Below, piece after piece: positions 3,090 to 26,415 of a stretch of 28,387 nt of DNA (positions are counted from its first letter, which is position 1; every line of letters begins with the position of its first letter). The notes beneath the pieces are model-generated. The model worked only from the letters and a program-made list of their open reading frames with translations, made no database searches and was not told the DNA's origin. The stretch is taken from the NCBI RefSeq assembly GCF_000003605.2, contig NW_003137327.1:55034-83420 (forward strand), read 5' to 3'. The stretch comes from Saccoglossus kowalevskii (lineage: Eukaryota > Hemichordata > Enteropneusta > Harrimaniidae). Made by a program: the position numbers and the translations under genes.

Positions 3090-3125
3090 CATAGACCTTA
3101 AAAGACATGTCTTTTAAGGTCTATG
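3090..3125. repeat. Perfect 36-bp palindrome
   Basis: The 18 bases CATAGACCTTAAAAGACA are followed at once by their exact reverse complement, with no spacer. The central decamer AGACATGTCT fits the p53-family half-site pattern RRRCWWGYYY. The palindrome lies about 1.4 kb upstream of the gene 1 start codon. It could be a cruciform-forming site, a regulatory site or a relic of a mobile element end; no duplication flanks it. Confidence 0.8.
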
Positions 3126-3561
3126 GAGTGAGTTAGCCAGGTCTCCAGCCCATCCAGCGAGTGCGTCATTAGATTGTCACAATGATACGTAACGCATTTT
3201 TCTAAAATGACAATAAATGTGGAAGTGTTTCATTCCATGACGTCATTCGCTCAATTAGTCTGCAGATCATAAGTGTTTTTTCTTCCACACTTGGTATCAT
3301 CTTATTTGCATATAGGAACACGATTAAGTGATGAGTGTCGCATCCACCCCTTGAATGGAATCCCCCATGTATTATTGGATGTCGCATTTTGCATTTCCTG
3401 TCAGTTACCTAGGCGACGATTTCTCCATAAATTGACTTCCCCCAGCCTCAGATGGTATAATTCTCCGGAAGCTCCAGGCAGAAGCAACACCGAGAGGATA
3501 GATCTCTAGTCACCGCGAAATACGAACAGAAGATTACAGCTACTAAACTTGATTTCATTCA

Positions 3562-3638
3562 TATATATTTATAATTTTTATAAGATTTTATACTCATTTA
3601 ACGACACGTCCAGGGAAACTACACAAGCAACTTGAAAG
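3562..3638 (+). promoter_or_regulatory. Candidate promoter and 5' UTR exon of gene 1
   Basis: A TATA-rich stretch at 3562-3590 is followed by a strong donor, AAAG|GTGAGT, after 3638. The first coding exon of gene 1 starts right after a splice acceptor (4485), so some upstream non-coding exon must exist if that acceptor is used. A second candidate donor, CCAAG|GTAGGT after 4379, would give a 106-nt intron, close to the 92-nt intron proposed for gene 2. I cannot choose between them from sequence alone. Confidence 0.25.
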
Positions 3639-4485: not shown

Positions 4486-6833
4486 ATGGAAATCATTCTG
4501 AAATTATCGGTTGTTATTCTTGTTTATTTGACATGTGTCTGTCATGGCAAGTCTTCATGTGGTACGTATTTTTGCATTTTTCTGTCAACGGTTAATTTTC
4601 TATTTAAGAACAAGATTATTAGCAATATGACGTCAAAGCTATTCATTACAAACAAAGTTGCTGAATCCTGGAACACAGCATGTTTGCTTCCATATACGTC
4701 ACATTAGTCTTCATGTGTGAGTGCATGGGGTGATACACGGCGTAGTAGGGTACGGCGACCCGGGGGCAATACATAGAACTTGCCTAATGGGGACGTGGCC
4801 CTGAAATGAATGTCGTTTTTTATTTATTTTAGGTATAACTATCAGTAATAATTTTCCGATTCGGTGTACTTATGGGTTCGTATATGAGCGAATATCTCCA
4901 CCTCAGATCCCGGCCTCATATCCATATATACATCAACCCGGAAATTAAACAAGGCAAACAAGACATTTGTGTTAATAATATGTTCTTATGTACGTGACAG
5001 AGGTGTTGCTATGGTCAAAATACATATTTTAATAAATCAATATACAATGCTGTTGGCTTACATGTGCTTCTATTGGAGATGCTCTTCTAATAGAGCAAAT
5101 ACGGTAACTGTTTTATTTGGAATAAACAGGGATGACAGAAATGGTACTTTGGTATAAATATGGGTATAGATTTTGCCAGTGTCCAGGTATAAAAATGGTC
5201 ACACTTTTGAGCACTATGTATCAACTGCTCCCGGGACGGCGACATTCTGTGCACATTCTTGCTACAGAGACATTATAATTTCAAATCTGTTTTTTTTTTT
5301 CAGATATGAATGTTTATGCTGTGACGATATTGGAGCCGGAACCCAACAACGGTATCGTGTCTTTCTATTCCGGCAGAGACACGTTCGTAGAACTGAGTGT
5401 CATTCTTATTAACGATGGACCGGAGAAATTACCAGCTAACTCCGACGGGAACTACGACTTTGTTCTCAGTTTTGAGTATTCGGAACCAGACCCAGATACC
5501 ACTTTAGAACACCCTGGGAAATTTACCTTCGAAATGGAGTTCTCCCATGAAGATGAATACAACAAAGGGATTGAGATGGATGTTAAAAAGAACCCAGTGA
5601 CGTTTACTCCGAATGCCACCATTGCCGTCCCCACCTGGCAATGCGGTAACCTGACCAAACTGTGCGTTACGTTGATTCACAGCAAAGACATTGAATACGA
5701 AGACGACGATAAATCCAATGACTTTTACTGTTTGGACTGGGGAAATGGTCCTAACTTCGCCGGGTTGTTGCAATGCACGGCAGGTAAGTCGCCTTACTGA
5801 CGTCACCGACACTTATGTTCACGCATGCGCATGCATTATCTACAAGTAACCATATACAAGAGAAATATATCGCAATTTAAGGATATTTTCGACTTAAAAA
5901 ACACATTTACGACAACATCTGTTAAAACTTATGTTTAATTTTAAAGGAATGGTCGAATTACTTCACAATATCCTCAGTTTCTCAACAAAACTTTGGAAAT
6001 AGGTCCCGGTTTTTCCAAAATTTGAATGTTAAATGTTTATTTTATTTGCCAGATCTTCATGTAGCCGATCTGAACATCACGAAACCAGATTCAAATCTTA
6101 TCTACACCATTGGAGAGGAAGTCAGTGTGACCTTTGACATGGAAATTTACAACATTGGGTGGGATTCAATCAGCGCAACCGGCGGGCCAACAAACTATGC
6201 ATTTGTTGCGAGTATGTCTGATAAACAAGATTTACAAGACGACAACGCCACCGTGGTACTATTCAACGTTGATGTCAGTGACGCATACGACCTGACGGTC
6301 GGAATAACTTCCTTTGACTCAATTACGATACGAGAACTGAAAGCCGACATCATTTTCCCGAGTGAAGACTGCTACATGTATCAGTATATCTGTATGTCTG
6401 TATCGGCACCAAAAACTGCTTTGTACATCGATGGTAATATGACGAACAGCCATTATTGTCTACCGTTTGGTGACGTAGAAGACGGTTATGGCGGCAATAC
6501 GCCGTGTTCGGGTAAGAAACACTTCTTTTTTTGTTTCAGAACAATCAGAGTTGCAAATCGTTCAGAACGCTTGAACGGTTAAACCTACACCTAATTTAGA
6601 AGGGCGCCACCACTTGGCTATATTGGACTGAAAAACAAGTCATTCACACGTAAGCAGGGCCGGGGTATTTTTCTAAGTGGGTCTGCTGTACCACGTTGGT
6701 GCTCAATAGACGCGTGGATCACAGATGGGCGATACTGACTTCGTTTTACTTTTATTTTACAGGGTACGCGATCAAGTTCAGTATCGGACTTCTCTTGACG
6801 ACGATAGTTTGCTCTATGATCGGACGTTATTAG
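4486..6833 (+). CDS. Gene 1: two-domain, GPI-like cell-surface glycoprotein
   Basis: Four exons (4486-4561, 5304-5783, 6053-6511, 6763-6833) join in phase 1 to encode 361 residues. All introns are GT-AG. Residues 1-20 are a signal peptide (hydrophobic core VVILVYL, likely cut after CHG). Domain A is about 26-185 and domain B about 186-338; each has four cysteines with the same spacing and sequons (NAT, NLT; NIT, NAT, NMT). The last exon gives a small-residue site followed by the hydrophobic FSIGLLLTTIV, ending RY, which looks like a GPI signal, though a single-pass membrane anchor is possible. An extra Cys at residue 25 (KSSC) precedes domain A, as in gene 2. The ATG follows splice acceptor TTTTTTCAG directly. 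The nearest paralog is gene 2. I do not recognise the family, and the molecular role is unknown. Confidence 0.85.
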
Positions 6834-7384
6834 TAGTAAACGCTGTGACGTCAGCGACCTCAATATTTTTGCCAACACTCCGTCGACTCAGACCACTATA
6901 TATTAATATAAATTTAATGGTCGGAAGTACAGATTACACGGGATCAACATTTGTCAAGCGTATTGGTAGAATCCTAAGGAAGATTGGTGACGCAAAATAT
7001 TTCCTTTTTAGAGCGTCCGTTAGTACTTGCGGTTACTTGGTATATGTTTTGCGCCCTCTCTTGACCGGTTCCACATCTTAAGAGGGCGCTTTTGATAGAT
7101 TTCCGACTCTAATATGACGTCAATATCACCAATACCACATCGCTTACTGTATGATCAAATCAATCGAAATTTACCATACGATCTTATTAGACTTGGTTTG
7201 TTAATTTCACGATATTTGGAAAAATAAGCAACACTCTTTACAAAAATACCAAGCACGCAAAAACTTGTAATTCTTTCTCTTGGATACATGTGGCGAATAC
7301 TCCAAGTCGAAGTTCATCTATTTTTTCGTGAAGTAAATGAAACGGCTTTTACAGATATAAGGCCATGACTACCAAGCCGCAATA

Positions 7385-7456
7385 TGACATATTTCATCAG
7401 ACCCTGAGTTCATCAATCTAGTTAATCAAAGGTCAAGGGTCAGATGAAATATGTCA
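7385..7456. repeat. Inverted repeat (21-bp arms, 30-bp loop)
   Basis: The arm at 7385-7405 (TGACATATTTCATCAGACCC plus one base) matches the reverse complement of 7436-7456 at 20 of 21 positions. Weaker pairing (GCC..CAAT) continues outward on both sides. It may be a degraded foldback element. It lies about 550 bp after the gene 1 stop. Confidence 0.75.
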
Positions 7457-8493
7457 GATTGAAAGGCAATAATGTGTCCATTTTGAATACAACTTTATTT
7501 TTCAATAATGAATGATATTGTACATTTTATAATTTTATAATAAATATTTTGACCTCTTCATAGCTTGTAATATTATTTTCATTGTGTACCACGCCCCCTG
7601 CGATGAGTGTCATTTTGGTGTGTTTTTAGCTGGTACACCACCATGACTGGCTCATACAGCTCACAAACTTCGTGTTAAAAAAATAAAACAGAAATTGCAA
7701 AATCATATGTAGCCTCAAAAAAATGAATTAGAAGAAGTACATGCTTATTGGTAAACTGGAACTGGGTGTTGTAGGATCGCTGTGTTAATCACAGGTTTTA
7801 AAAAAAAAATCCGTAATAAGCCGATGTCGGAATCTGTTCATTTTTTTGTTTAGATCGAATAACATTTTATCTCACCATTATTCAATAACTGTGGGTTTTT
7901 TGGTCTAGAACTCCTGAAAACGGAAAGGTCCCTTTCTTTCTACATCCCAGGTCACACATGCAAGCTAACAGTGATTGAGTCGACACAAACTAACTTCTTT
8001 GGCGGTAGAGGGCATAGTGTCCCAAGCCATGTCATCATGCACGACATATAGTCTATTTGTATAGAATCATCAGAAAATGTACTACAGTGTAAACAAACGG
8101 GTCAATTACGATGACATTGTATGTTAGTACACAAATGATTTTTTGTTTGAGTTATGAGTAAAACTATTTCCTAACCATATACGAACATAGCTTGTTATAC
8201 TGCATCGCACAAATCCCTGACAGACGCCCTCTATGTTTAGTTTCGCCCCATCTCACAAGAGAGTGGACAGACGTAAACGGAAATAACGTCATTTCTATTA
8301 TTAGTGTGTGTCACTGTAAATAAAAAATCAATAAATCTCTGTTTTTTCAATTGTTTTAGTAATATAGATAATGTCATCCCGAATTAGCCCTATCGTCTAC
8401 ACATATTTGTGTTAATAATTTCGTTGACATGGAAGTTTGTCGAACGTGACCACTGGGCGTCATGTGATTGCACTGTGAAGACAGCAATGTAAG

Positions 8494-8509
8494 TAGCGCC
8501 CTCTGGCGA
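8494..8509 (-). promoter_or_regulatory. CTCF-like motif
   Basis: Read on the - strand, this is TCGCCAGAGGGCGCTA, which closely fits the bilaterian CTCF core CCASYAGRKGGCGC followed by TA. It lies in the gene 1-gene 2 spacer and points opposite to the copy at 8699-8711. AGAGGGCGC can also belong to dispersed repeats, so a functional site is only possible. Confidence 0.3.
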
Positions 8510-8698
8510 TCATGCTCGTTCGTGGTGTCCAAACATTGCGTAGATGTATGAAATCAGTGTCGTATATAACGTCGACTGTCCCTGCTTGTGCATTCGTTTG
8601 TCATTCGCAATATAGTGCATCTTCAATAACTAATTTATTTTCAAAACAACATGCGAACGGTTTTTCTTTCATCCATTTACGTCATCGATAATATTCGT

Positions 8699-8711
8699 CC
8701 CAGAGGGCGCT
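8699..8711 (+). promoter_or_regulatory. CTCF-like motif
   Basis: CCCAGAGGGCGCT on the + strand is about 200 bp from an opposite-facing copy at 8494-8509 and about 650 bp upstream of the gene 2 start codon. The same caution applies about repeat-derived motifs. Confidence 0.28.
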
Positions 8712-9167
8712 GCTAACAGTAGGGGCCATTGTCCCAATAAGATGGTTATGAAACTTTTTTGTTGTGAAATTCGATGCACATACGTTGTATATGTCGCATG
8801 GGACCCACGTCGAACACGACATGGAAGGACGACTATGGCGCTTTAAAAGTATGAAATATCTCGTACACAGTTAGTGATAAACGTTAAATTTGGTTATAAA
8901 TTGTGAGAATGATCACGTTATGCGTCAGGAAATGGGGAGAATCTGACATGAAATGGTTTGCGAGATAAATTGCTGTAAGATTGACACACCTAAAATTCCA
9001 CGTACTTGGTACTAACATGCTCATGACGTAATTTATTGAAAGTTCATGGAGAAAATCTGCCATAGCAACAGTTCGACGTGAAAATAATGCGAAAACATCC
9101 ACTAATACAAACACTAACATTTGTTTAATATATAACAGACTAAGTGCACACGCCCATTGCCGCTGAC

Positions 9168-9256
9168 ATTAAAAGGGAATTCTGGCGAGATAGATCAGTT
9201 TTCTTTCATTTGGCGGTCTGATTACAACATCTCCTGGTACTGGTAGTGACACTAAG
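9168..9256 (+). promoter_or_regulatory. Candidate promoter and 5' UTR exon of gene 2
   Basis: ATTAAAAGG near 9169 could act as a weak TATA element and TCAGTTT near 9196 as an initiator. A donor CTAAG|GTTAGT follows 9256. Splicing from there to the acceptor CTATTCAG (ending 9348) would remove 92 nt and place the start codon at the first base of the next exon. Confidence 0.28.
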
Positions 9257-9348
9257 GTTAGTACTAGTCATTAGATTGAATGCGGATTCAGTATAAAAGT
9301 GATGAAGATTGTAGCTGTATTTTAAAATTGTTATATTGTTCTATTCAG

Positions 9349-11205
9349 ATGGCGTATTTAATAACAACCACAGTTCTCATGCTCTGTTTGGTAAGCATCT
9401 GTTATGCTCAGTCCACGTGTGGTGAGTATTCATTAATTTTTTTCATATCTGTAAAATTCAAGAAATTCAAAAATATTACTGCTGTGCACATATATCACTA
9501 CAAACGTATCATCGCTGTGTTTTCTACTTTAGATTTGAACGTGTACGGTGTAACGGTCATTGAACCAGACCCAAACAACGGCCAGATCTCGTACTATTCT
9601 GGCAGGGACACCTACACTGAGCTGAGCATAGTGATCATTAACAACGGACCTGATACATTACCGGCCGACCTGAACGGCGACAACTATGAACTCGTTCTCA
9701 GTTTAGAATATACAGACACAATCATGACGTACCCATTTGAAATCGACATGGAGTTTTCCTACGCGGACGAGGCTAATATGGCGGCTGAATTGCTGTATCT
9801 GGATTCTATGTCGTACACACCAAACGCTACCGTTGCCGTGCCAACCTGGCAGTGCGGCAATCTCACGAGTATGTGCGTGTCCTTGGTCAAAACCACCACA
9901 GCGTACGTGGATTTAGCTCCCGATAACGATTTCTACTGCCTTCAGTGGGGTGACGGCGCCACCTCAGCCGGGATTCTGTCATGTACTGCTGGTGAGTTAC
10001 GTGTTTTCTGAAGCGGCAATGTGTTTTTTTGCACGTTTGAATCATTTGTTTGTTGGTTTTGTATCTTAAAATTTATGGTATAACTTGTTATTAAAGATTA
10101 TTTTTTTGGCAGCACATGTATCAGTTTTAATGAAACAATGAACAAACGTCATACGCATGTAATTCGAACCGCACGCGCACTAACGTTTTCATTATTTCGT
10201 CGAACGAATACTGCCATGTGTGCTTCCAAAATAGACAAAAAATTACCCATATTATAAACTATTTAAAGCGCGGTGGTCGTCGCGCAGCGCGTGTTCGAAT
10301 TTCATGTAAATAAACAATGTGTTTTACATGCGTTGTATACGACGCTATGAGTCCCATATCGAACAGAACGCGGCGCGACGACCACTGCCCTTTAAACTTG
10401 GCAAGTTTAAAGGAGGCACAAGGACACGATCATGTTAGTTAGATGCTCCTATACTTATATATATACATATTTTATATTATTTTTTCAGATCTGCACATAC
10501 ACGATGTAAACATCACGGATCCAACCTCTAATCTAATTTATCGAATCAACCGAAACGTCGAAGTGACATTTGACATGGAAATGTACAACATTGGTTGGGA
10601 ATCCATTAGTGCGACCGGTGGGGCAGCGAATTACGAATTTGTTGCGAGTATTTCCGACAAATCTGATTTAGAAGACGACAACGCTACTATCGTGCAATTC
10701 GAAGTTGACGTCCGTGACGCCTACGATCTGACTGTGGGAATACCGTCCTTCGAATCTATTATGATTCGCGAACTGAAAGCAGACATTAAATTTCCGAGTG
10801 AAGACTGTCATATTTACCAGTATGTTTGCCTGAGTGTTTCGGCGCCCAATACTGCAGCGTACGTCGATGGCAATGCGACAAACAGTCATTTTTGTCTGCC
10901 GTTTGGCGACGTAGAAGACGGATATGGCGGGAATTCTCCGTGTTCAGGTAAAGAGTGCCGGTTTTATTACGTTATTTTATGTATTTAGTGACCCAGCCTT
11001 TTCCTTCACAATGTTATGCTTGCGAATGTAAACATCGCCATCACACGACCAGTTTGACCAACACTTTTGCAAACATTTGGTCAACAAGGTGAAATAAATC
11101 ATTCTATAACGAATTTAATGTTTTGTTTTATTTATAGGTTGTGCAGTTACGTTCAGCATTGGACTTCTTTTACTGGCAGCTCTTGTCTCACTTTTCGGAC
11201 AATAA
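9349..11205 (+). CDS. Gene 2: two-domain, GPI-like cell-surface glycoprotein
   Basis: Four exons (9349-9421, 9533-9991, 10489-10947, 11138-11205), all joined in phase 1, encode 352 residues. Residues 1-20 form a signal peptide (core TVLMLCLVSI, likely cut after CYA). Domain A is 25-177 and domain B 178-330, each with C-x6-C-x20/21-C-x14/15-C and conserved sequons (NAT, NLT; NIT, NAT, NAT). The C-terminus, CSG then CAVTFSIGLLLLAALVSLFG, is a good GPI-signal candidate: small residues, then an uninterrupted hydrophobic end. The ATG follows acceptor CTATTCAG directly; an in-frame ATG at 9280 is upstream of it and would lie partly in the 5' intron. This is the closest relative of gene 1, and both keep an extra Cys just before domain A. 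Intron 2 holds a TTAA MITE. The family is unrecognised. Confidence 0.87.
10263..10395. mobile_element. TTAA-type MITE in gene 2 intron 2
   Basis: A 133-bp non-coding element with TTAA at both ends. The 23-bp terminal inverted repeats match at 21 positions (left begins TTAAAGCGCGGTGGTCGTCG, right in reverse TTAAAGGGCAGTGGTCGTCG). TTAA targets are typical of piggyBac-like transposons, so this is probably a non-autonomous relative. It lies between domain exons and does not touch the splice sites. Confidence 0.8.
10389..10413. repeat. Short perfect hairpin at a MITE end
   Basis: CCTTTAAACTTG, a single G, then CAAGTTTAAAGG: 12-bp perfect arms. It overlaps the right TTAA of the element at 10263-10395 and may mark the abutting end of a second, lost element. 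Confidence 0.7.
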
Positions 11206-11570
11206 AATGGTAATTTACCTCCCTAGCAACGACTTCTCTAAACATTACACACCACCGTGATTATGTCACAGGGTCGAACTTTGTCAGACCGAAATTCAAC
11301 CGTTTAATATGAAGAGTTGTTAATTGGGAGTAACTATTCAAAACATGTTTTCACAAGTATTGTATCTGAAAATATAGAAACATTTTTAAATATTAAACTT
11401 AGTAATTATGTGGCAATTGAACTAGGAGGATTGACGCTATCGGCTCATGTTTTGGTGACGTCATCGGTTATGGTGCAGTCGTGTCTGGAACAAAACGGCA
11501 CCTAGCCTCATTTTAGACCAGTGTAACTAACTGCCTCAATTTAGACGATTATTGATGGTTAACTCGTTTC

Positions 11571-11576
11571 AATAAA
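11571..11576 (+). terminator. Candidate polyadenylation signal of gene 2
   Basis: AATAAA about 370 bp after the gene 2 stop, followed by T-rich sequence. Another AATAAA overlaps the stop codon itself (11201-11206), but it would leave almost no 3' UTR and is less likely. Confidence 0.4.
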
Positions 11577-11599
11577 AGCTAATTTTATTTTTTGCGGAT

Positions 11600-14500
11600 T
11601 TCGTAAACAAATATTTATTTATTATATTTCAGCTGTCAATGAGAACAAAAAAATGAATAATTAATTATACACACACAAAATTAAGATATATATTTGTTTC
11701 CAGTAGTGTATTGTTTGTGTTCTTATAAGCTATGAATTTATGATTTGATGTTTGTCATGGTATTTCAGCCCATGGTCATTTGCAGTTGGTCACGACCTTC
11801 TAACTTACTAGTTACGAATACTTGTATGTCAGATAAACGAGTATGTTAGGGGGCATTGGCAACTAATGAAAGTGACAACGATAGCGAATATATTGCAATA
11901 TGGCATTGTTACCTGATGTATTATATCTGAACCTGTATTTTTTAATCGATTTTTTGGTTTGATATAATAACGCTGCAAATGGGAATTACTTTGAAATTCT
12001 GTGATAAATGACAATAGCGCGTGTTTTTTTTTGTGTGTTTTGTTAGCACAAGACCATGCTCGTAGATATTTCAGTCATGTACTTAATAATGCAATGTCGT
12101 GTTTATTAAACAATGAAATTATTACATACTATAAAATATCATTTCGCATTGTGTTTAATATGTTCATTCAAATAAAATGGTATTATGGTGGTATTGTGAT
12201 AGGTATTTTTGATGGTTAAAAACCTTTCACTTAGGTAACCGGGATTCGGTCGTTTCCACGCTAGGCTGACAAAAGACACACACAAGCTTCGTTCATGTTC
12301 CCAAGACGATTCTCTGCCCAGTCCCTGGTTTTCACCCGAGACAGCATTAAATCCATCTTTATTTCTTGTCACTCCTTAACCAATTACAATCAGTATAAGA
12401 GACTCCAAGGCCTTGCCTTCCAACAAACAACCAATCACATGAAAGTTTTACACATCATAATCAATTAATTACTCGTCAAGCTGTCTAGAGAAAACATTTC
12501 TATACATTGTCAACACTAACTAATATTGATGGGGTAATAATCTCGCACTAACATTCCACCAAGATACTACCTTTTTTAAACTCGCAAACAACATTGGTTT
12601 AGAATTACAGCTACTGTCTTGTATCTTAAAAACTGCAGAGTCATAAGATGTTTTTGGTTGATTTCGACCAGCTCGCCATCTGGTCTTGTCATTAACCTTT
12701 ATCAGTATATGTCATGACAACCACTGTCAAACTGACTGAAATATAAATCATGATAGTATAATGACAATGTCTTTGGACATCGGGGGTATTTTGGGAGATC
12801 TCATTATTTGCGTATGTTTTTTGCCGTTGGTCCGGGTAGACGTCCCATTTCTAAGCTATATCACCCCACCCCCACGCCCATCAACGCTACCATAATGTTC
12901 AAAGTATGATCGACGTATAGCAGCACCGTGAAAAGTCGAATGGTAATGCAATGGTGGCGGCGGAGAATATCAGGGTTAATGTTGTTGTTCACATGCATCC
13001 ATCACTGTGATGGCAGACTGATAGTAAGATATAGGAGTATGTCGCCAATTAATGGGGGGGTCTTCTTTCTATTGGGAAAACCAAAAACAAATGTTATTCA
13101 CGCTTACTATCGGTATTTTGGTGCGGAAAATGGTTTGTTTCATAAACAAAATGATAAACAAGTAATCTATTTTGTAAAGGGTTACACGTTTTTCGAAAAA
13201 TCGGGTAAAATCCCAATCCTTACCCCACCATGAGCATCGCCAGGGGTCTTTCCCGGACGCACTGTACGTGTTCTGGTTTATGGTCAAGACATGTTTGGTG
13301 AAAACATGATGGCACACTACTTCCAGTAGAACATATTTCCACACTCTTATAAATGAAACAAAACCACCGCAGTACACACATTGAATAACACAAATACCTC
13401 ATAGTGAAACAGTGACAATATATATGCAGCGGTAAATCGCTACTCAGTTTCTCAGTGATATGATGTCGTAACCCAGACACGACGCGCCATGGACAACTTT
13501 TCGAGGGGAAGGAGTCATTCAAAACCGTAACTTTTTTGAATGGAGATGACGTTAAACGGGCAACCACTTCGTGAAGGAATTGTCGTTGAAAAAGGGGCAA
13601 CTATTTGTGAGTCAATGTTCTGTTAAACGGACATTTTTTTTGTGGAGAATGTGCCGTTAAAACGGGCAATTTGTTGATGGGAGAAATAAGATAAAATGTT
13701 TCAGATGGTCATTTGTATAATTTATAATATATCCACGAAATACCTTACGACGTGACTCGGGTTTCAACAACAAAAGAAGACAACAAGTTGATAGGGGGCG
13801 GTGTGAAACGAACACATATATACTGAATACTCGTCTCTTACAATGTGTCAGAATTTGTGACGTCACTTCTAGCTTTGATCACGACATGACATGAAGTACA
13901 CATCGTATTGTATTGTTTGCAAGTTATTCAAACTTTCGATATGTTTGTTTTTTAAACTTGAAGTTGTTTACGTATTTGCCGTGGGCAGTTAGGAATGCAC
14001 ACGTTTCGTGTAGCGATATTGACCTCTGCTCTGTTGATTGGTGTTCGAGTGGGTGGCCAACACTGTTATCAATGTGTGAACATTTGAAGTGTTCGTCCAC
14101 TTTCATTGAAGTACGTGTCGGATTGTTTCCGTTAAAATTAAATGCTTTGTTACTACAAACAGTTCAACTGTTTAAAAAATATTCATGAAATGTTCGTTGA
14201 CAACCATAAAAACAGTAATTCCAACCGATGTATGGAAATAACACATTACGGGATTTCGGCGCCCGTGTTATTCTGTTCGATTACGTCATCTACATGTAGC
14301 CTCGTTCCAAGTTAGTCCATGGCGCACAGTCGTGCATGCAAACACATGGTCCAAATAAATGAATGCAACTTTTTCGGGATTTCGTTTTGTTTCAAGAAAA
14401 ATATTCACCACGCCGTAGTGTGATGTATTTTAGTGACGAGTACATGACTCGTAGTGTGCAATATAGTAAGTGCATAGTTTTACTACAGAAATAGTCTGAA

Positions 14501-15260
14501 AAACGAACTAAGTATATTCCTGATATATTACTCACAGTCTATGCCAGTAAGACAAATGTGGTCATAATCTGATTCGCCATTAGATAAATTCAATTTCCTA
14601 GCATTCGCTGGGCGTTTACTATAACGAATTGTCAAAGATGCGTTTCAACTTTTCAAATCCATGAGGTATCCTCTTCTCATCTGACCACAACAAAATGATA
14701 GGATTATGGACGAGTAATGGAGAAGTTAACTGCAGAATGTGATTGTATGCGTCCATTAAATTAGATTTAATTATTTTGTAAGCAATAGACACTCGCTGAG
14801 TTATGAAGTTTGTTGTCCTTGGAGACCAGTTACATTGTATGAATGTTAAATCCAAGGGATACGAACGTCCGGTACTCTCAAAATAAAATGTGTAAAAGGC
14901 GAAATATCTACTTTCGATATATCATATTTTAACAAAAATATAATTTGTCATGTTTTCAGCTTGCTCGAGAAATTTCACAAAATTGCAACTTTAATAGTAT
15001 CATTTCATCGAATTAGATAGTAATTATGTTTACACACCTTGTAGAAGTAAATGTTAAAATCTTAGTATGTACAGAGGTTAAAAGACATCTTGTTTCATTT
15101 CAATGGTATGTATGCATAACGATTGTATGACACACTGTGGCGTAGGATGAGGCGTGGTTGGTACTAATTTCATATTGAAATATAAACAACTTCAACTATT
15201 GTTTGGTATTCACACGAAAAATGATTTGTATACCCTGCTGTCATGGAGACGTCTATGTTT
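11600..15260. other. Spacer between genes 2 and 3
   Basis: No exon resembling the cluster genes and no other gene is recognisable. Open frames on both strands are short and lack family-like composition or paired splice signals. The only clear structure is a degenerate minisatellite at 13551-13684. Confidence 0.5.
13551..13684 (+). repeat. Degenerate minisatellite, about 35-bp period
   Basis: Four units start with GTTAAACGGGCA-like sequence at 13551, 13584, 13622 and 13656 (spacings 33, 38 and 34). Each is followed by a T/G-rich middle. Units differ by substitutions and small indels. Confidence 0.65.
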
Positions 15261-15269
15261 ACTCGACCT

Positions 15270-15368
15270 TATAAATGCAAGTTATATCAGTAACACGTCT
15301 GCAGTGCGCAGTAAAAGTGGAAAGTATTATACCACGTGATATTCCAGCAATCGAGTAAGTTAAGACTG
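15270..15368 (+). promoter_or_regulatory. Candidate promoter and 5' UTR exon of gene 3
   Basis: TATAAAT at 15270-15276 is followed about 30 bp on by a possible start site near 15300 and a strong donor ACTG|GTAAGT after 15368 (another, CGA|GTAAGT, is just upstream). Splicing to the acceptor ending at 16035 would remove 667 nt and leave two untranslated bases before the ATG. Confidence 0.3.
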
Positions 15369-16037
15369 GTAAGTATTCCCTTATCAGAGTTACTTTGTAC
15401 TCAGTTTGGGGTTTACGATTTTAACCGGCTTTCATTCAGGATATATCGTGTATATATATGTTATAAAATATCTTTGAGATGTATAATCGTTACTTTAGGC
15501 AAGCTCATAAGGGATAAATACTCTTCGTGTATTTCGTGACTGGATGCATTCACTCTATAACTTTTGACTATGACGAGAATGAGACATGTCACAATTCTAA
15601 CTAACCCTAAATGTCGAGTTCCGCATCATAAGTTGAATACGTCGTTATTGGCATTGCTAACGTGTACTGAAATTCAAATTTTGGGCGTTGATTTCCTATG
15701 TAATCGAGATATTACATTTAATTTGTTACTGATGCGCTTGTTAAATAATTTGAGCTGTTGACAATTTTCCGTGAAAACCACGACAACTTCCCGACCTCGG
15801 TGAAATACGCTAGATGAAGACCAGTGGTCAGCTACCACCAAAAATACACGCATATTCTCAAAACGATGAAAAAACAATTTCGCATCAGTATGTATGTTAT
15901 GCGTTTGTTATTGGTAAAGGTCACCAAAGAGATAATGAAATGCAATATGAATATCGTTTTCCCGTTTTAATAATTAGATATATGTTTTATAACATAGAAT
16001 ATTTCTAATAGGTGTTATTTGTTTTTGTTTCATAGAA

Positions 16038-19000
16038 ATGGGTTGTTTTGCAAGAATTGTGAAATTCGGTCTTCTGTTCTTGTCATGTTTTCTTGGTAAT
16101 TGTTCGTCCCAGGTTACATCAGGTAAGTCCACGTGTGCATTTTTTTGTATGTCAACAAGTCTGAAAATCAACGACAATTTGCGTGGGTGTTTTGAATAGT
16201 ATGTAGGTTTGCCATTGCAGAGCGTTTGGAGTCAATGCTACTTACAAGAATACACCTGATTGGCCCTAACACCTACCATTCAGACCAATCAGTAAACAGC
16301 TTGCTTGTCGATATTATTTCCTTTTAGTTCTGTCGTTTCATGCATATCATGTGGAATTGAAATGACCATTCTAATGAGTCTATTTGGCGGGAACCTACAC
16401 CGGGACCCACAGTAGCCTAGCTGCTAAAGCCTCTACCTGCTGTGGTTGTTGTTATTGTAGGTTTGGACCCCTTCCTCGGCCTATTTTTTCAATAGTTTGG
16501 AAAGATTTCCCTGTCAACTCCAGATATTGCACTTTGACAATACCTATCAATACAATCTTAGCCAAGATGAAGTTCTGATAAATGCGTACTGTAGAAATAA
16601 AGAGACTACATATCATATAAGGGTTGTGAGTTATGCTAAAATGTTGCAGTAAACTGTCATAAATGTGACGTGTGCAATTAAAGGGCGGTAGTAGACGCGC
16701 CACGCATGCGCGAGATATATGGGTTTTATATAAACAATGATGGCGAGTTTGATTGTTGCAGATACACGAGAACAACAAGATTTAATTGGATATTTTTTAG
16801 GTGATTGGAAGGTATCGAAGGGGTCACCGGCGGTGATTAGTGAAGTCGCGTCCAAGTCAATTTATAGTATAAGAGCGCATTGGGTTGTGGGAAAATCAAA
16901 GTTTATCAACTCAAACGTCGTACATCGTAGCGCGACGGCCACCGCTCTTTAAAGTAATATTTTGTATTTTTTTCTAGACCTCAAGGTATATGGCCTTGTT
17001 GTTGCTGTACCCGACCCAGCCAACGGCCAAGTTTCATTCACTTCCGGTGAAGACACCTTCACTCAGCTGAAAACTGTTGTCATTAACGACGGTCCGGATA
17101 CGTTGCCAGGAAGCAGCAATGGTACATACATGTACGACTTCATCGTCAGTCTCGAGAACAGCAACACTAATCTACTGTATGACGTCACACTGGATATAGA
17201 GATGAGTGAAACAGATGAAGCTAAGCTTAGTCAACAACTGGCCTTATTTGCATCGGCATCTTATGAGCCAATGAACGTCACCGTTACCATACCAACCGAC
17301 TTGTGTGGCAACCTCGCGTACTTGTGTATTACGATAAAACACAACGACGACGGAGGTTACGTCGATGACGTCAGTACAAATGATTATTTCTGTTTATCAC
17401 TGGTCGATGGTTCCAGCAACGCCGGCATCAAAGAATGTACTCCGGGTGTGTGATACGTTGATTGTTATGTTATTGTGTTTATAAGTGCACTTGTCGAACT
17501 ACGCATCGATTGTTTTTATGTTAATATACACAGTTCTATGTCGGTCTACTGGCGACAGTATGCGACACAGTGGTATCTTAGGCATTTTAACCCCGATATT
17601 GATTCTCGCAAAAATTTACGTAATTTTGTATAATTTTTTTTTTGGTAATTTTGTACAATTACACTAACAACCACATGCTGGAGTGTATGAGACGAAGAAG
17701 AAATTTGTAGTACAATTCTAAATTTCAATTTGGTGAATTTAGTGATACTATGTGAAGCGACCCTGCAGTCGACCATCATGGGAGTTTTCGATTTTGATTT
17801 CATGTGACGTATATATAACGCGTGTGATACAATGATTGGTGACACCAAATATGGGCATAGTCGGTTTATTAATAAGTGTTTAATGTTGTAAATTGGAAAA
17901 CTGGAACAAATCATATGTAAGTTGTATAATTAGTTGTGAAAGTTGTTCATACTAAGGAATTGCTTTTTTCCCGCTTTTCCAGATTTGTCTCCCAGCAGTT
18001 TGAACATCACAGACCCTGGTATCAATTTAGAGTACGTACTCGATAATGACGTCACCATAACGTTTGACTTCAACATCACAAACATTGGATCGGAAGAGAT
18101 TAACGGCACAATTGACGGCTCGGCTAACTACGATTTCGTCGCCAGTATTAGTGACATCGACGACCTGGACGACGAAGATATACATCGCATTACATTCAAT
18201 GTTGACACCAGCTCCGCCGTAGGCTTGACGTCTGGAATACCAAGTTCGGGAGTCACCACCATCAGCGGTCTGAAGACTGATATTAACATCCCCACGCTCA
18301 ACTGCGGCGGTTACCGCTACGTATGTGTGATGGTTACAGTCCCCTCTGGCGCCCTCTACGTGGACGGCGATACTGACAACAATTACTTTTGTTTACCATT
18401 CGGTGACGTCGAAGACGGGTATGCTGGTGTCAAACCGTGCAGCGATAGTAAGATTCTTTTTTACTCTTTTCATAAATCTGTGATGACTGATGCATGCCCC
18501 CAAAAGAAGAACTGTTTCTTGTCAATTTGTTTTCCAAGATCGTTTTTTTTAATTACATGTATAGTTTAAATTTTGATTTCTCGTGAACACTTCGAAAATT
18601 CTTTCAAAACACCTAAAAAACTCTAGGAACATCATCTTTGGGAAGGGCCAACAAACATGTCAGCTCGTTGTTTCAAACTCATGGCATGTTGATTGTATAG
18701 CGGTAAAATACTGTGATCTCATCACGTTGCAATTTCCATAAGCAAACACGTACAGTTAAAATATTTCTGAATGGGCGGAGAATGTTAATATACACGTTCT
18801 GGTACTAAATTCTTTATTTAAATTTACTCTCCGTCGTACTCGAAGTTCAGAGCACATGAGTGGTAACTCCGAAAACACGCAACCGTGTTTACATTATATT
18901 TTCACTCTTCAAATGAGTGTACATACAACGGGATATATTCTAGAAGAAAAGAATAATTATACAAAAAAATGTATTTATAAACCGCAATATACTTATGATT

Positions 19001-19542
19001 TATGGTGTCTGCTTTATATTCCAGGTGCCTTCTTTGTCACTACTACTCCGGGACAACCGACACTGCCCTCTACAGGTAGTTTATTAATATCATACATAAT
19101 GACCATTACTTCGTTCAAGTTTATATTAGACTCGTTTCAAATACTGTATTTGGTTAACGCGTTCCGAGTCATGGAAGTCAGTTGACTAAATTAAAGCTTA
19201 TTATATGGAACATAGTCGAGGTCGGTTGTGTCGGTTGTGTGTTGTCAGTCTCACTTAATATTCTATGGCATCAGCGAATAGACCTATAGTGAAATTGACA
19301 CTATAAACAACAACAATGTTACCTTGGTAACACACGCTAGCGTGATATATCCCTGAGACGTAGTGTAGTTCGAATAATGATCATAATCAGACTCGATAAA
19401 TATCTGTCTTACAGTAACACGTTTCTATTCTATATTCCACATAGGTACCAAAGGAGCCACGGCACGTGTTACCATGGTGACAGCAATTGCGTCAAGTATT
19501 TACATGTTGACAACTATGTTGACAACTAACAAAGTATTCTAA
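16038..19542 (+). CDS. Gene 3: two-domain surface glycoprotein with stalk exon
   Basis: Five exons (16038-16122, 16978-17445, 17983-18447, 19025-19075, 19445-19542), all joined in phase 1, encode 388 residues. A signal peptide (core GLLFLSCFLG, likely cut near NCSS) precedes domain A (29-184) and domain B (185-339), both with the family four-cysteine pattern. Residues 340-356 come from an extra 51-nt exon rich in Thr, Pro and Ser (TTTPGQPTLPST), a likely O-glycosylated stalk absent from genes 1 and 2. The last exon encodes a moderately hydrophobic end (VTMVTAIASSIYMLTTML) that could be a GPI signal but is less convincing than in gene 2. The donor after exon 2, G|GTGTGT, is weak. A MITE ends 25 nt before the exon 2 acceptor. 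The relative most like it is gene 4. Function unknown. Confidence 0.82.
16678..16952. mobile_element. TTAA-type MITE in gene 3 intron 1
   Basis: A 275-bp element bounded by TTAA. The left end starts TTAAAGGGCGGTAGTAGACG; the right end in reverse starts TTAAAGAGCGGTGGCCGTCG, and the 23-bp arms agree at about 18 positions. The right arm closely matches the terminal repeat of the element at 10263-10395, so they are one family. The open frame running through it (from 16737) is not transposase-like. Confidence 0.7.
19318..19331. promoter_or_regulatory. RFX X-box-like palindrome
   Basis: GTTACC-TT-GGTAAC in the last intron of gene 3 is an exact fit to the X-box consensus GTNRCC-N0-3-RGYAAC. A 14-bp palindrome can arise by chance, and the position is intronic, so a regulatory role is speculative. 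Confidence 0.25.
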
Positions 19543-20800
19543 ACTGTTTCTGTCGATTTCAGATTTTTTTATTCATTTTTGTAGTAATAATAATTTTCTT
19601 TTGATTTTGATTGCATATGAAATTTGAATTTGTAAAACATTATTTCGATAATCAATGTAAGATATCTGATAATATTTACAAGTATGAGTTAAAGTGGTCG
19701 CGTGTACTTTCTGTCTTCAAGTTCTCGGACACGAATTGCCGCACCCCTTTAAATAACAGACACTTTGTGTCAGCTCAATGTATATAATGTTATGTTGTTA
19801 ACAGTAATTTACTCCCTGTGAACAGGCAGCCATAGTGATTTTTTGTCGAAGCGCTACTCACCACAAAAATGATTTGGGCTGTTCTCATAAATATACACAC
19901 CCATACTTTATTTTCATATGCTATACTTTGCCTTGGTTGTACGGCCATGAGAATCAGTGTTTGTATTCACCACATATCACGCATCGATAAATGCACACTG
20001 TAAATATTGACTTCTAGAAATGTAACAAATATTCATGGTTGTATATGAAATAAATAGGCGTTCTATGAAATAAATTTGCTTTGATTGCTGAATTATAATA
20101 TTGACCAAGAACAATCAGGGATACACCATTATATTTTTGCTGGGGGTGGCTCGAACGGACGTTCCTTCACGAAGTTTCATGATTTTTCTCTGTAATAGTG
20201 TCTTTCTAATTCTAGCCCACCACCCATGCAAAAGCAATGGTCCACTCCCAATATATACAGTATATGTGGTGTATTTTTTCAATGAACACCTTAAATTTAG
20301 TTTACATGTGACAAGTTCACTGATTTGTCAAATTATATGCTGAGTTGTGTTGTGTGTTGTGGGCCACCGTAGGAGACAAGTTATTGCCGTATACTGGTGG
20401 AATCCGTGATGAATTATTATTTTAACATGTAAACCGAGCTTCGTTGCTATGGCCACCATCGAGACATGGTGTCTGCTTCACAAGTTACTGATATGGTGTC
20501 CAAACACCGCACGATGAAACACCGTGACCGAGCACCGAGTTTTGTTGGTATGGACGACGATATTGTAGGAGGGGTATTCATTAGCATGACTCATCTCGTA
20601 CGAACTAAATCGTAAATTGATTGAATTGGAGGTGCGTCTCAACGATACGAGTAGTTGCAACCCAAACATTACGAAAACCAAGTGAGAGTGGTACGAGCTT
20701 TATATTTACTCTGTGACGTATGAATATTTGGCTTACACTATCCAAGAGGCACCAGTACGCCCATGAATACACTCGCCCTGGCAACGTTTTTTTTTCTCCC
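19543..20800. other. Spacer between genes 3 and 4
   Basis: This should include the gene 3 3' UTR, with AATAAA at 20049-20054 and again at 20069-20074. A possible small foldback lies at 19689-19754 (TTAAAGTGGTCGCG at one side, CCCCTTTAA at the other), perhaps a degraded TTAA element. No gene is seen. Confidence 0.45.
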
Positions 20801-20809
20801 GAAACGGTC

Positions 20810-20978
20810 TATTTAAGTTGATAAAGTATTTGTGTTGCGAACTATTGAGTCACTCGCCACAAGTGACACCACATATATTACAGTCGATACTGTGCGTATT
20901 TACATCACTTTCTAAAGTGTCTAACGTTAAACTGCCAAGGTCACTGTCGTTCTTGGCAATATTGCCGATACGTCCAAG
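20810..20978 (+). promoter_or_regulatory. Candidate promoter and 5' UTR exon of gene 4
   Basis: TATTTAAG at 20810-20817 could serve as a TATA element, with a start near 20840. The donor CCAAG|GTAAGA follows 20978; the sequence before it resembles the GCCAAG|GTAGGT candidate upstream of gene 1. Splicing to the acceptor ending at 22565 would remove 1587 nt. Confidence 0.25.
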
Positions 20979-20999
20979 GTAAGATTTTTATCTATACAA

Positions 21000-22560
21000 A
21001 TTCATATCTAGTTTCTCTAAACATCATTATTATGGGGATTAATATATTCACTTAGTGCAAAGTTGACAATATATAAATTATATTCAATTTGGATCCAGCA
21101 GAATGAGCAACGACGCGCAGAATATACTGTAATAGCAGTAGTAGCAGAGTGCGCATTTTCCTCTAAATGTGGATGAAATGCGGTCGCTAGAACTTTCGGG
21201 GAGGTGGTTCAGGTTGAACTTGTTTCGCTGTCGTCCTTGCGTGTTTTGAACATACAAGGAAACTTAAGCGTTTGAAAACAATCATAACACACGACCGATG
21301 CCTGATTTAAAAAGGAAACGCACCCGTATAAAACATTAAAAAAACAAATATATTGGAACTTCGAAAGATCTGATTATAATCTGACGAACTCCGTGATGAA
21401 AATGTTTTTGTGTTATAATTTTATAAATTGCGACTGGTAAATCGAAAGACTTTTTGGCCTGGAAAGGTTTCCTAAAATGTAGTGTTATAAAAGTAAGATT
21501 AAAATAAGATCCTAGCTTGGGCTTTATTGTTTTTTTTCTTGTTTTCATTAAATTATTTGTTTTATTATACCCAATTTTATCTGAAATTATTTATTTGATG
21601 GCAGTTCTTAAAAAGTGTTGTCAATTGTGAAAGCTCATAATATAAGATGTACGTAGTAATAATAATAATAAAAATATTAAAAATTATACTGAGTACAAGT
21701 AAAATAAAATGTATAAAAAATACATAACATACGAATACATCATATTTTAATCAAATTTGGAATTGGTCATCTACCTCGTCTGTTCAACTGTAATTTTCAA
21801 ATCAAACTTGTGACAGCGACACTCAATGTACATATCTACACACTTTATTGGGTAATAATTTATTTTAATTTGTTAATATATTTCTGTGAAATTAGTTCGA
21901 GATTATTTCCCACAGTTTACAAACTGAAAGTCGATCAACTCATCACAGTGCTTGTAAATGTAATACTGTTTTATAGTAACACAACAAATGACTCGTCTTT
22001 ACATATATATATATATAAACAAGTAACAATTTCCTGTTACTTACTACATTTCTAGGAATCAAATAAACAAAAAACGGTGACGCTGTCGTCTTCGCAAAAT
22101 CCAGCATTGAAGGGCGGCAAAATTTGTAATTTTTCGTATTTTAGGCAGTTTTGGGCAAAATGTGTTAAATGAACAAGATTGTAAGTCTTGACGATGCACA
22201 CCAATGTGCGCAATGACACAGCATAATGGAACGTTTAGAAGAACTCGGGAAAGATTATTCTGTTTGATTCAGAGTATCATGCTAAAGATGATGGAATGTC
22301 GGTGAGAACATGTCATTTTAATGTTATTTGACACTACAAATGACGAATACATTGGATTATTATTCATCGTGAACTGACAAATTCTTGTAGCACACACATG
22401 AGTATTCGTTTTAATGAAAAAAATGACAATATCCACCCGAGAATAGTAGTCAAACAATATTAACAATGCATGTTTTAGTTAATATATAGAAAAATCATCG
22501 TTCCTGCAAATGTAAGAAAAATAACAGTAAAGTTATTATTAACAATGAGTTTATGTTCCC
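21000..22560. other. AT-rich stretch, probable 5' intron of gene 4
   Basis: Very AT-rich, with short A/T simple repeats (TAATAATAATAATAA near 21657, a TA run near 22003). No supported exon or RNA gene. If the upstream 5' UTR exon is real, this is intron 1 of gene 4. Confidence 0.4.
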
Positions 22561-22565
22561 TACAG

Positions 22566-23680
22566 ATGTGTGTTCGTGTGTTTATGAAGATGGGTTTAAT
22601 CAGCCTACTATTGCAATTATATGATACGGTTTCAGAGACCGCAGGTGAGCAGTTACATTCCGAAAGAGCGCCACCATTGTGTTACTTAACAGCTAGGTTC
22701 CATTCACTCTGTGTTGTCTAATTATGGAATAGTATATACATACACCTTAAAGCGGGAGTGTCGTCACCTGCGCACGCGCGGGAATTGAGTCCCAAGCGAT
22801 TATAACACAACACACACTAAAACGCAAAGGCTCATGGGTAGACGCTTTTTTGTAAACAATGGCACGCTATGGCCATCAGACGCATGCGCAGGTGGCGACT
22901 CCCCCGCTTTAAGATCATACATGGAATCATATTAATGTCCCAAAATGGAATACAAGCAATTTTCACCAGTGTACTAGCGTTCAAAGCGCCACCACGCGGT
23001 TGCTAATTGATACATTTTGTTTTTACAGACCTTCGGGTGTACGGTATTCAAGTAACAACACCGACCCCCGGTGATGGCGCTGTGTCTTTCATATCTGGCA
23101 GGGAAACACTCACCCAACTGAAAACAATGATTATCAACAATGGGCCTGACACATTACCAGCAAACGTTGATGGTAATTTCGATCTGATACTCAGTCTTGA
23201 ATTCACGAACAACGACTTGACGCTCGACTATACTTACCCCATTTACGTAGAAGGTACCCAAGATGCGCAGAGATACGAGTCGATCGCTTTGTTGGAGAGT
23301 GCACTGTTCGACTCGATCAACGCCACTGTCACGATACCAGTGGAACACTGTACCAATATCAGTTATATCTGTATTAGCATACGCAATACCTTCCCTGGCG
23401 GTGTCATCGATGACGTTGCAGCCAACGATTATACTTGTTTACAGTTTCTTGATGGTTTTGAGAACGCTGGAATAAAAGAATGCGTTTCAGGTAATAATAC
23501 CACATCGTCAAGTTCATCGTCAGAAGCCTAGTCATAATTATATATTCATATGATAACAACACACACTAAAACACAAAGGCTCATGGGTAGACGCTTGTTT
23601 GTAAACAGTGACACGCTATGGCCATCTGACGCATGCGCAGGTGACGACTCTCCCGCTTTAACATAGAAGCCTACTCATAA

Positions 23681-23719
<39 letters not shown>

Positions 23720-26415
23720 TAAGGTGGTCATACATTGCATGATAACGTTCAATGTTTATTATGTACAACCATGGAGCTAATGTCTCACGGTACACTGAAA
23801 AAGTATTATTTTGTGTGTTTTTTTGACAAACTTGTTATATTTGTCAAAATCACTACAATGTTAAAGAAAAATTGCATTTTTGACACTTTTTAAAACCCAG
23901 ATTTTAAAAATAATTCAGGACAACAAAAGGTACCCCATCATTAATGTCTTATTTTTTTTCAGCATATGCCATAATATCTCTGATATAGGAGTCTATGGTA
24001 AACACGTTATAATACTGACAAACTGTGATTGTTGTTTTTTAAGTGCTCATAGTATCGCTACAACTAGATTTTTTCAATTCATAAAAAAATGTTGAAAAGA
24101 TTAGACTCGGTAACATTACATTGCTTTCATTGTCTCTTATCAGATTTAATCCCCAGCAATTTAAAAGTCACTTCTCCCTCAACCAATCTCTACTACACTC
24201 TCGATGCAAGCATCCCTGTCACCTTTGACCTGATGATTACGAATCTTGGAGAAGATTTCAACAAAATTTTTGACGGATCGTCAAATTATGAATTCGTTGC
24301 AAGCATCGCCAGCAACGACAACTTGGACAATGGCAATACAACTCGTATCACGTTTAATGTGGATGTAAGTTCAGCGTACGACCTGGGCGCTGGCATATCT
24401 AAATATGATACGATCATAGTTACATCATTGAAAGCAGACATTAAGATTCCATCAACAGACTGTAGTATATATCAGTACTTATGTATGAGTGTGACGGTAC
24501 CGAGTGGTGCTTCTTACACTGATGGTAACCTTGACAACAGTCATACGTGTTTACAGATGGGCAATGTCGAGGATGGATATGGAGGCATTAATCCATGTAC
24601 CAATAGTGGCAGTGAGTACAACATGCATTTTTATCGAGTTGCGCCCTCTAAGTTGTAGCTCCCAGAAAAAGAGGGAACTCTGTCTTCTAAAGATAATTTA
24701 AAATCAACCAAGACATTTTAGTAGGCAAGATAGATTTAATTTTGTTTTTCAACTGTGGTATGGAAACTAATGAAACATAAATGAAAGAATGAGCAGAAAT
24801 CGGATACACTTACTTATCTCTATGGTTTCTTCAGTTAGAGGTAAAAAGCTGATTTTAATATAGGGCTCTATTGAAAAGATGCGAGCCCCCCCCCCCCCAA
24901 TGCCCTCTACAGTTCAATTTTCTATCCCACTCTTTACAAAATCCAATATTTTTTTCCTATGGGTTCGAGTTAGAAAGAAAATACATTATATGTCCCGGTC
25001 AACGGCGTAGTGCACAATCAGTCACTTATATGGTGGTCGATGAAGTCGGTTGAAGTGCCGACATCTATTGCCACGATCTCTATGTCGATGTTTTTCAAGT
25101 TTGTCAAAATAGAGTTTGACGTCTGGCTTGTCTTCTAGTTATTTGTCAGGTTACTGGGTACCGGTATGTTCGTAAACTGATGTATTCCATCGACCGAGTA
25201 AAAAAACAGATTCAAAATTAAAATAAAATGTGAAAATGTGTTAACATTCTAAACAATGAACTATAGCGATCAATAAAATAGAGAAATAATAAAAAATGAT
25301 AATGACTCGATGATTCGTAAATCACAGTTACTAAATGATAGTCACGTGCGAGTGGATTAACATCCTGTTGAAACGGGTGAACGCCTCGGGTCACGGCGAG
25401 GAAAAGTGCGTGAATGGCGGCGTTTGATTGGATAACAAAAAATTGAGAGCGAAAAACAGCAAAATTTATCTGAGTTAATGTGATTGTCATAATTAAGACA
25501 GGACATTACTTAGTCGCAAACTATTGACATCCCATTTTTTATGCAGATCAAATTGCAATAAAAGGTCACGGAAGTGTGAAGTCGTCATTCAACTTTATTG
25601 AAAGCGAAATTAAAAACAATTACAAACGTGCCAGTGCTGCGTAATTTCTGGTTTGACCAACCTTTGGTTTTCGCGTCACATCATTACATAACATAACACA
25701 AACTATATAGTCTCTATAAAACATTATTCAGATTACCAAAACATTTGAAAAACCAACCTGACGTCTCTTTTATGAAAGCCAACGCGGTGATGGTCTGGTT
25801 CGGAATCTGGTTCTTCAAAAAGTGTTAGTACTGTGCCAGATTTAAGTTTTCGGCATTTGTTTTTAAATCCAAGGTGTTCTTTTATAAAATGAGGACAGTT
25901 GTTCAGCGAAAGAATATGCGGTATGATGGTATAGGGAGAATGTTCATTCCAACTTTTCTCATTGATTTTTCGGCTTTCGTCTACTAATGTCACATCTTCA
26001 TACTATTAAAATATATATTATTAAATGACGCAGTATTATAAAAGAATGGCGCAAGAGTATGGCTTCTTCTCGTATGTTTGCATATGGTGGCGCATTTTTA
26101 CTGCAGCTAGTGTCCAAGAGCTGAAAACTGTCAACTGCTTCAACTGTAGCATGACTACAACACGAGAAATATCTCAAATTTACTCGGGTACGATTAATCA
26201 TTTCAAGAAAAAATCGATGACTGTCCAATTCAGTTCACAAATCCAAAACGGTAAATGTGTAGGTGGGCATTTCACAGACACTTGAATGAAACGATCGTAA
26301 ATTACATAGCGCCAGCACACGGTCACAATAATTATTATTATTTTCAGGCACCGGGACGAACACAAATGTGTCGCTGGTAATTATGGTTTTAGTGCTGAAC
26401 TCCATTTTGCCCTGA
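22566..26415 (+). CDS. Gene 4: two-domain, GPI-like cell-surface glycoprotein
   Basis: Four exons (22566-22644, 23029-23490, 24144-24611, 26348-26415), all joined in phase 1, encode 358 residues. The ATG follows acceptor CCCTACAG directly. The signal peptide core is GLISLLLQLY (weaker than in the paralogs, with Met at 1, 7 and 9). Domain A is 27-180 and domain B 181-336, both with the family cysteine spacing; sequons include NAT, NIS and NTT. The last exon encodes STGTNTN followed by VSLVIMVLVLNSILP, a good GPI-signal shape. The intron before it is 1736 nt, much longer than in genes 1 and 2, and contains a candidate optional exon at 26107-26187. Read-through of the exon 2 donor would add a Ser-rich end and stop at 23531. 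Two MITE copies lie in its introns. Function unknown. Confidence 0.8.
22747..22912. mobile_element. TTAA-type MITE in gene 4 (between exons 1 and 2)
   Basis: A 166-bp element with TTAA at both ends and inverted repeats of about 34 bp (left TTAAAGCGGGAGTGTCGTCA, right in reverse TTAAAGCGGGGGAGTCGCCA), about 28 positions matching. Its inner part includes ACTCATGGG-like and GCATGCGCAGGTG strings shared with a second, truncated copy at 23553-23661. Confidence 0.8.
23491..23531 (+). other. Possible read-through end of gene 4 exon 2
   Basis: If the donor G|GTAATA is not used, the frame continues for 13 codons as GNNTTSSSSSSEA and stops at 23529-23531. This would give a soluble one-domain product with no anchor. 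In genes 1-3 the equivalent read-through stops after a few unremarkable residues. Confidence 0.2.
23522..23686. repeat. 22-bp direct repeat flanking the truncated MITE
   Basis: AGAAGCCTAGTCATAATTAT(AT) at 23522-23543 recurs at 23665-23686 with one mismatch. It encloses the MITE fragment at 23553-23661. The repeat is much longer than the 4-bp TTAA duplication expected from transposition. Confidence 0.8.
23553..23661. mobile_element. Truncated TTAA MITE in gene 4 (between exons 2 and 3)
   Basis: About 109 bp matching the right two thirds of the element at 22747-22912 with few differences (shared GGCTCATGGGTAGACGCTT, ACGCTATGGCCATC, GACGCATGCGCAGGTG, CCCGCTTTAA). The left terminal repeat is missing. 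The close match suggests recent spread or copying between neighbouring introns. Confidence 0.8.
23688..23716 (+). repeat. (TA)n microsatellite
   Basis: About 14 uninterrupted TA units just after the direct repeat flanking the truncated MITE, within a gene 4 intron. Confidence 0.9.
24886..24898 (+). repeat. C13 homopolymer
   Basis: Thirteen consecutive C residues in the last intron of gene 4. Length is prone to sequencing error. Confidence 0.8.
26107..26187 (+). other. Candidate optional exon in gene 4 last intron
   Basis: Bounded by acceptor TTTTTACTGCAG and donor TCGG|GTACGA, 81 nt, open, and phase 1 at both ends, so it could be included or skipped without shifting the frame. It would insert 27 residues with two cysteines and a Thr-rich patch (NCFNCSMTTT) between domain B and the anchor, the place where gene 3 has its stalk exon. 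No sequence similarity to that exon is evident, so chance remains possible. Confidence 0.3.

Follow-up and report, generated by a model that had tools for sequence, protein, structure and literature searches.

The stretch of Saccoglossus kowalevskii DNA analysed here (the window; 28,387 nucleotides, C2884:55034-83420) carries a tandem array of four plus-strand genes, each of which encodes a signal-like N-terminus, two related four-cysteine domains (A and B) and a C-terminal tail. These domains, unrecognised by the sequence libraries that were searched, appear to make up a sizeable family of surface proteins in an animal near the base of the deuterostomes. With moderate confidence we favour a model in which this is an enteropneust family of cell-surface glycoproteins with two tandem domains, GPI- or transmembrane-anchored, whose ectodomains most likely serve adhesion or recognition. 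Domain A would be the outer and domain B the inner domain, each encoded in the window genes on its own phase-1 exon. A GPI anchor would tether the window proteins to the membrane, and in some of their relatives a transmembrane helix followed by a short tail would do so. The inner B domain would act as a constrained spacer, while the outer A domain would present the more variable face and meet the ligand.

Splicing at GT-AG junctions predicts proteins of 361, 352, 388 and 358 residues, all open, within positions 4486-26415, a span that correctly gives the extent of the coding parts of genes 1 to 4. All 13 coding introns across the four models are GT-AG and all 13 are in phase 1, and the order of signal-like N-terminus, domain A, domain B and tail is common to all four genes. 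Shuffled extracellular domains usually take this form, with a phase-1 intron on either side of the exon. This re-splicing agrees with the original prediction, which had described four spliced plus-strand paralogues of these lengths, sharing exon order and phase and open to a stop. The pattern shared by the four gene models is far beyond chance.

The exons were all placed by splicing, with genome searches adding support for every domain exon of genes 2 to 4 and for the B exon of gene 1, domain alignment for both domain exons of gene 1, and hydropathy for the tails. Gene 1 consists of a start codon, signal peptide and mature N-terminal cysteine ending in a phase-1 donor (4486..4561), a domain A exon (5304..5783, phase 1-1), a domain B exon (6053..6511, phase 1-1) and a hydrophobic, GPI-signal-like tail exon with the stop (6763..6833). 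In gene 2 the signal-peptide exon (9349..9421) likewise includes the mature N-terminal cysteine and is followed by domain A (9533..9991), domain B (10489..10947) and a hydrophobic tail exon with the stop (11138..11205). The coding part of the gene 3 signal-peptide exon (16038..16122) lacks a cysteine directly before domain A; domain A (16978..17445) and domain B (17983..18447) follow, and this gene alone has an additional 17-residue Thr/Pro stalk exon in phase 1-1 (19025..19075) between domain B and a tail exon that is less hydrophobic than those of the other genes (19445..19542). Gene 4 comprises a signal-peptide exon, also without a cysteine directly before domain A (22566..22644), domain A (23029..23490), domain B (24144..24611) and a hydrophobic, GPI-signal-like tail exon with the stop (26348..26415).

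Gene 1 may have a promoter and a non-coding 5' exon at 3426..3638 on the plus strand, where there is a CATAAA box and a donor, GTGAG, at 3639. This element was proposed from a donor scan and from the resemblance of positions 3274-3441 to a fifth, upstream copy of the gene (67%, E 1.15e-6 by blastn). Also upstream of gene 1 are a direct repeat of about 175 bp (150-322 and 1179-1353, 76% alike) and a perfect 36-base palindrome (3090-3125). A search of the window for tRNAs and Rfam families found none.

The four genes are clear paralogues. Searched against the whole genome, the B domain of gene 1 matches those of genes 2, 3 and 4 at E 1.2e-78, 5.6e-39 and 6.3e-45, and the A domain of gene 2 matches those of genes 1, 3 and 4 at E 5.9e-50, 7.2e-37 and 1.4e-29. 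Third-position differences exceed second-position ones by 1.7- to 4.7-fold, and exceed first-position ones as well, in all 12 pairs of A or B exons. dN/dS could be computed in 4 of these 12 pairs, the other 8 being saturated in dS; it is 0.14 between the B domains of genes 1 and 2 and 0.17, 0.21 and 0.31 in three A pairs, all with dS above 2. Genes 1 to 4 are thus genuine coding sequence under constraint. That some or all of them are pseudogenes or unexpressed is very improbable, given that every model stays open and uses GT-AG splice sites and that constraint by codon position is present across the four copies.

Domains A and B are themselves related, a point that goes beyond the original prediction. 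They can be aligned with 15 of 163 columns invariant, and in whole-genome searches the B domain of gene 1 reaches the A exon of gene 3 (E 3.4e-4), while the A domain of gene 2 reaches the B exon of its own gene (E 0.003). Judged by their sequences, the two are homologous, both being copies of a single domain type of about 150 residues. An alignment of 27 domains has seven invariant columns: the Asn and Gly of an N-x-G motif, four cysteines and one further Gly. The cysteines follow the pattern C-x6-C-x~20-C-x~15-C. Among 36 domain stretches that each cover at least 121 profile positions, and that were selected by a profile itself containing the cysteines, C-x6-C is present in 35 (the exception being C4196_12533); Asp and Glu outnumber Lys and Arg in all 36.

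Among the four window genes domain A is less conserved than domain B. Invariant columns number 36 of 164 in A and 54 of 158 in B, and within columns 61-100, which are numbered in separate alignments and are not equivalent positions, 1 of 40 is invariant in A and 11 of 40 in B. Genes 1 and 2 are identical at 86 of 153 positions in A and 118 of 154 in B (Fisher p 0.00017); the difference is also significant between genes 1 and 4 (p 0.0011) and is not significant in the remaining four of the six gene pairs. Tandem paralogy combined with a more variable outer domain is common among gamete-surface and reproductive proteins, and the array could be read as such a set. We consider this quite improbable, however, because low dN/dS where it is measurable, together with deep divergence, points to long-term constraint rather than rapid change; the computable dN/dS values (4 of 12 pairs, with 8 of 12 saturated) give no sign of positive selection.

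The family extends well beyond the window. Searches of the 572-Mb genome with the A domains of gene 2 and of a C4196 relative, read together with a tree, place A-type domains at no fewer than 17 sites on six contigs, 15 of them whole and two cut; as lower bounds, there are five on C2884, four on C4196, three on C844, two each on C2472 and C1146, and one on C447. The two incomplete domains, in the fifth C2884 copy and at C1146:14588, both run into Ns. Across 29 residues the fragment on C1146 shares 97% identity with a C4196 domain, and it may be an assembly duplicate. The original prediction had proposed looking past the edges of the window for further copies, and the fifth copy starts upstream, with a signal exon and the beginning of domain A followed by a run of Ns. 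It lies at C2884:35034-37891 (L045:1-2858) and possibly has a 5' non-coding exon as well. Ns flank the window at either end, as an assembly gap or as withheld sequence. On the minus strand, upstream of the window by about 22-25 kb, sit other relatives of the domain (L044:5022-5441, L044:6002-6394, C2884:32285-32527 and C2884:29661-29834). Two long open frames, one upstream (5775 residues) and one on C1146 (4895 residues), were rejected as genes, each adjoining a run of Ns.

A tree of 39 domains separates 15 A-type domains (the four of the window plus 11 from elsewhere) from the remaining 24 (the four B domains of the window plus 20 from elsewhere), with support of 99/98; nine of its end branches are long, and the placement of those rows is unsure. 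Beyond the window there are 11 whole A-type domains; nine have a domain of the other clade after them on their own strand and one has a partial domain, while for the A-type domain at C2472:4321 no following domain was found in the stretch examined. Constraining the eight domains of the window to a single clade makes the tree 19.8 log units worse, and that grouping, which was named after the tree had been seen, is disfavoured (p-AU 0.0275). Genes 1 and 2 are closest relatives in both halves of the tree. Given the 99/98 support for separating A from the rest, an A-B gene probably arose first and was then duplicated whole, as far as the tree allows one to judge. The local expansion put forward in the original prediction therefore needs qualifying: the four-gene cluster is real, but the tree places the split between A and the other domains outside it, and family members occur across the genome.

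Gene architecture varies among the relatives. On C2472, C4196, C844, C1146 and C447, unlike in the window genes, domain B is apparently split across two exons (splice context was read for C2472), which appears to reflect intron gain or loss between subfamilies. A 10-kb stretch read on another contig (C2886:92001-102000, L048) has seven such domain exons in a row on one strand, perhaps forming one long gene.

Signal-like N-termini are found in all four window proteins, which carry 5, 5, 6 and 4 N-glycosylation sequons in gene order. By hydropathy, the C-termini of genes 1, 2 and 4 are short hydrophobic stretches with no cytosolic part, as would fit GPI anchoring, and the tail of gene 3 is weakly hydrophobic, which makes the same prediction weak for that protein. 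Two types of tail occur among the relatives. Of 11 terminal frames, three encode a transmembrane helix and a short tail (C2472:17798, C4196:67586 and C844:232925; splice context was read for one of these genes), two have GPI-like tails (C1146:21046 and C4196:26045), another is truncated where the locus ends, and no tail is visible in the other five. No ITIM- or ITAM-like motif was seen by eye in the three transmembrane tails, that of C2472 having one Tyr at the membrane edge, and therefore no signalling route is visible in them.

The composition of these proteins brings in a second reading, in which they are very acidic secreted or anchored glycoproteins of the epithelium, mucus or another coat, with a structural or matrix role, putative calcium binding and no specific partner. 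Asp plus Glu amounts to 54, 48, 49 and 41 residues in genes 1 to 4 against 18, 9, 14 and 14 of Lys plus Arg, an Asp-rich loop such as VEDGY is invariant in the four B domains, and several relatives have Thr-rich stretches ahead of their tails, all of which would suit a matrix role. The GPI-like and transmembrane tails, on the other hand, indicate the cell surface rather than bulk matrix, and we regard this reading as possible, though somewhat unlikely.

The favoured model of anchored ectodomains may include dimers. A cysteine stands directly before domain A in genes 1 and 2 and in the fifth copy and is missing from genes 3 and 4; among nine other upstream stretches scanned, three contain a signal-like exon, each located on C4196 and with that cysteine at its end. 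The ectodomain of gene 1 has nine cysteines, four per domain and one before domain A. The tail exon of gene 2 supplies a further cysteine next to the likely site of anchoring, which leaves the ectodomain count of that protein unsure. With the cysteine before domain A, the mature ectodomain has an odd number of cysteines in gene 1 and several relatives, and these proteins may therefore form disulphide-linked dimers.

The original prediction could not name the family, and that statement stands: searches of Pfam, NCBIfam, PHROGs and the PDB, the profile searches it had called for among them, returned weak and scattered matches and no well-described family. Six single domains searched against Pfam at E up to 10 gave nothing convincing, with CARDB and Ig models absent from the matches, and 27 family domains, including all eight of the window, matched no CARDB and no Ig family at E up to 1. 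Ten Pfam families were each matched by one of these 27 domains, the best at E 0.0018; this match, to SlpA_C, and one to DUF5027 (E 0.0024) were set aside as sub-threshold and confined to one member each. The best NCBIfam match of the eight window domains, between gene 4 B and an alpha-amylase model (E 0.00061, 17.9 bits where the cut-off is 864), and the PHROGs family phrog_7997 (three of the eight window domains, best E 0.0021) were set aside as well. Sequence searches of the PDB gave no match, and a search with the family profile gave a best E of 1.4.

Consensus sequences fared no better. The family consensus matches positions 15-72 of the 101 of the CARDB profile (PF07705) at E 0.022, with 15.4 bits against a curated cut-off of 22.7, and also DUF5008 (E 0.0033) and SH3DP (E 0.084; 0.011 with the B consensus); the A consensus has no Pfam match. 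As a control, the reversed consensus matched Cep192_D3 at E 0.0079 and Isoamylase_C at E 0.037, while of nine shuffled controls seven had no match at E up to 1 and the other two matched at 0.18 and 0.19. Since the CARDB match does not surpass that of the reversed consensus (0.022 against 0.0079), membership of CARDB was rejected, leaving no more than a guess at the fold; DUF5008 and SH3DP were set aside on the same grounds. The N-x-G and D..NN motifs of the family resemble those of CARDB, and from this and an alternating pattern we would guess at an Ig/CARDB-like beta-sandwich. CARDB itself is a beta-sandwich of prokaryotic surface proteins, whereas the acorn-worm domains have four conserved cysteines and lie on phase-1 animal exons. 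In bacterial and archaeal genome contigs 136 stretches matched a pattern, none of them encoding a relative, in a search able to find fairly close relatives only. A literature search of titles and abstract openings returned none that names this domain family. The N-x-G and C-x6-C signature and the split between A and the other domains suffice to find and name it.

A comparison with known recognition systems shows both likenesses and differences. Vertebrate CEACAMs of the Ig superfamily likewise occur as clustered paralogues with a signal peptide, both types of anchor and phase-1 exons encoding tandem domains. The acorn-worm pattern C-x6-C-x~20-C-x~15-C is nevertheless unlike the Ig cysteine pair, the domains have no Ig match in Pfam, and the three transmembrane tails are without the ITIM- or ITAM-like motif. 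The Alr allorecognition cluster of Hydractinia is also a cluster of cell-surface paralogues in a marine invertebrate, from which the acorn-worm array differs in its low dN/dS where measurable and its GPI-like tails. A bolder form of the recognition model, in which GPI-anchored and transmembrane proteins have in common a distal/proximal ectodomain built on a hitherto uncatalogued four-cysteine domain and, diversified in their distal domain, make up a paired set for self/non-self or cell-type recognition independent of the Ig superfamily, seems to us unlikely. If a recognition role is true, the family would add one more ectodomain type to those known.

Two minor observations concern repeats near gene 4. 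A dispersed, MITE-like repeat of about 110-170 bp, 88-93% alike and with short inverted ends, sits in the first two introns of gene 4 (22747-22917 and 23552-23672) and upstream of the window (L044:6444-6629). Downstream of gene 4, at 26904-27725, are diverged repeat units about 67-84% alike.

A further observation concerns the mitochondrial contig C4830, whose genetic code and COX1 orientation make Saccoglossus or a close relative the likely source. COX1 is encoded there on the other strand from ND1 and COX2, the last two being assigned from their sequences. TGA occurs internally seven times in the matched stretch of COX1, where ATA stands at what we take to be isoleucine sites. ND1 has eight AAA and no AAG codons in lysine contexts, AGA stands at a presumed serine site, and AGG is absent from both ND1 and COX1. 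A published account describes the S. kowalevskii mitochondrion as having AUA for Ile, AAA for Lys, AGA for Ser, AGG missing and COX1 inverted (PMC3121625).
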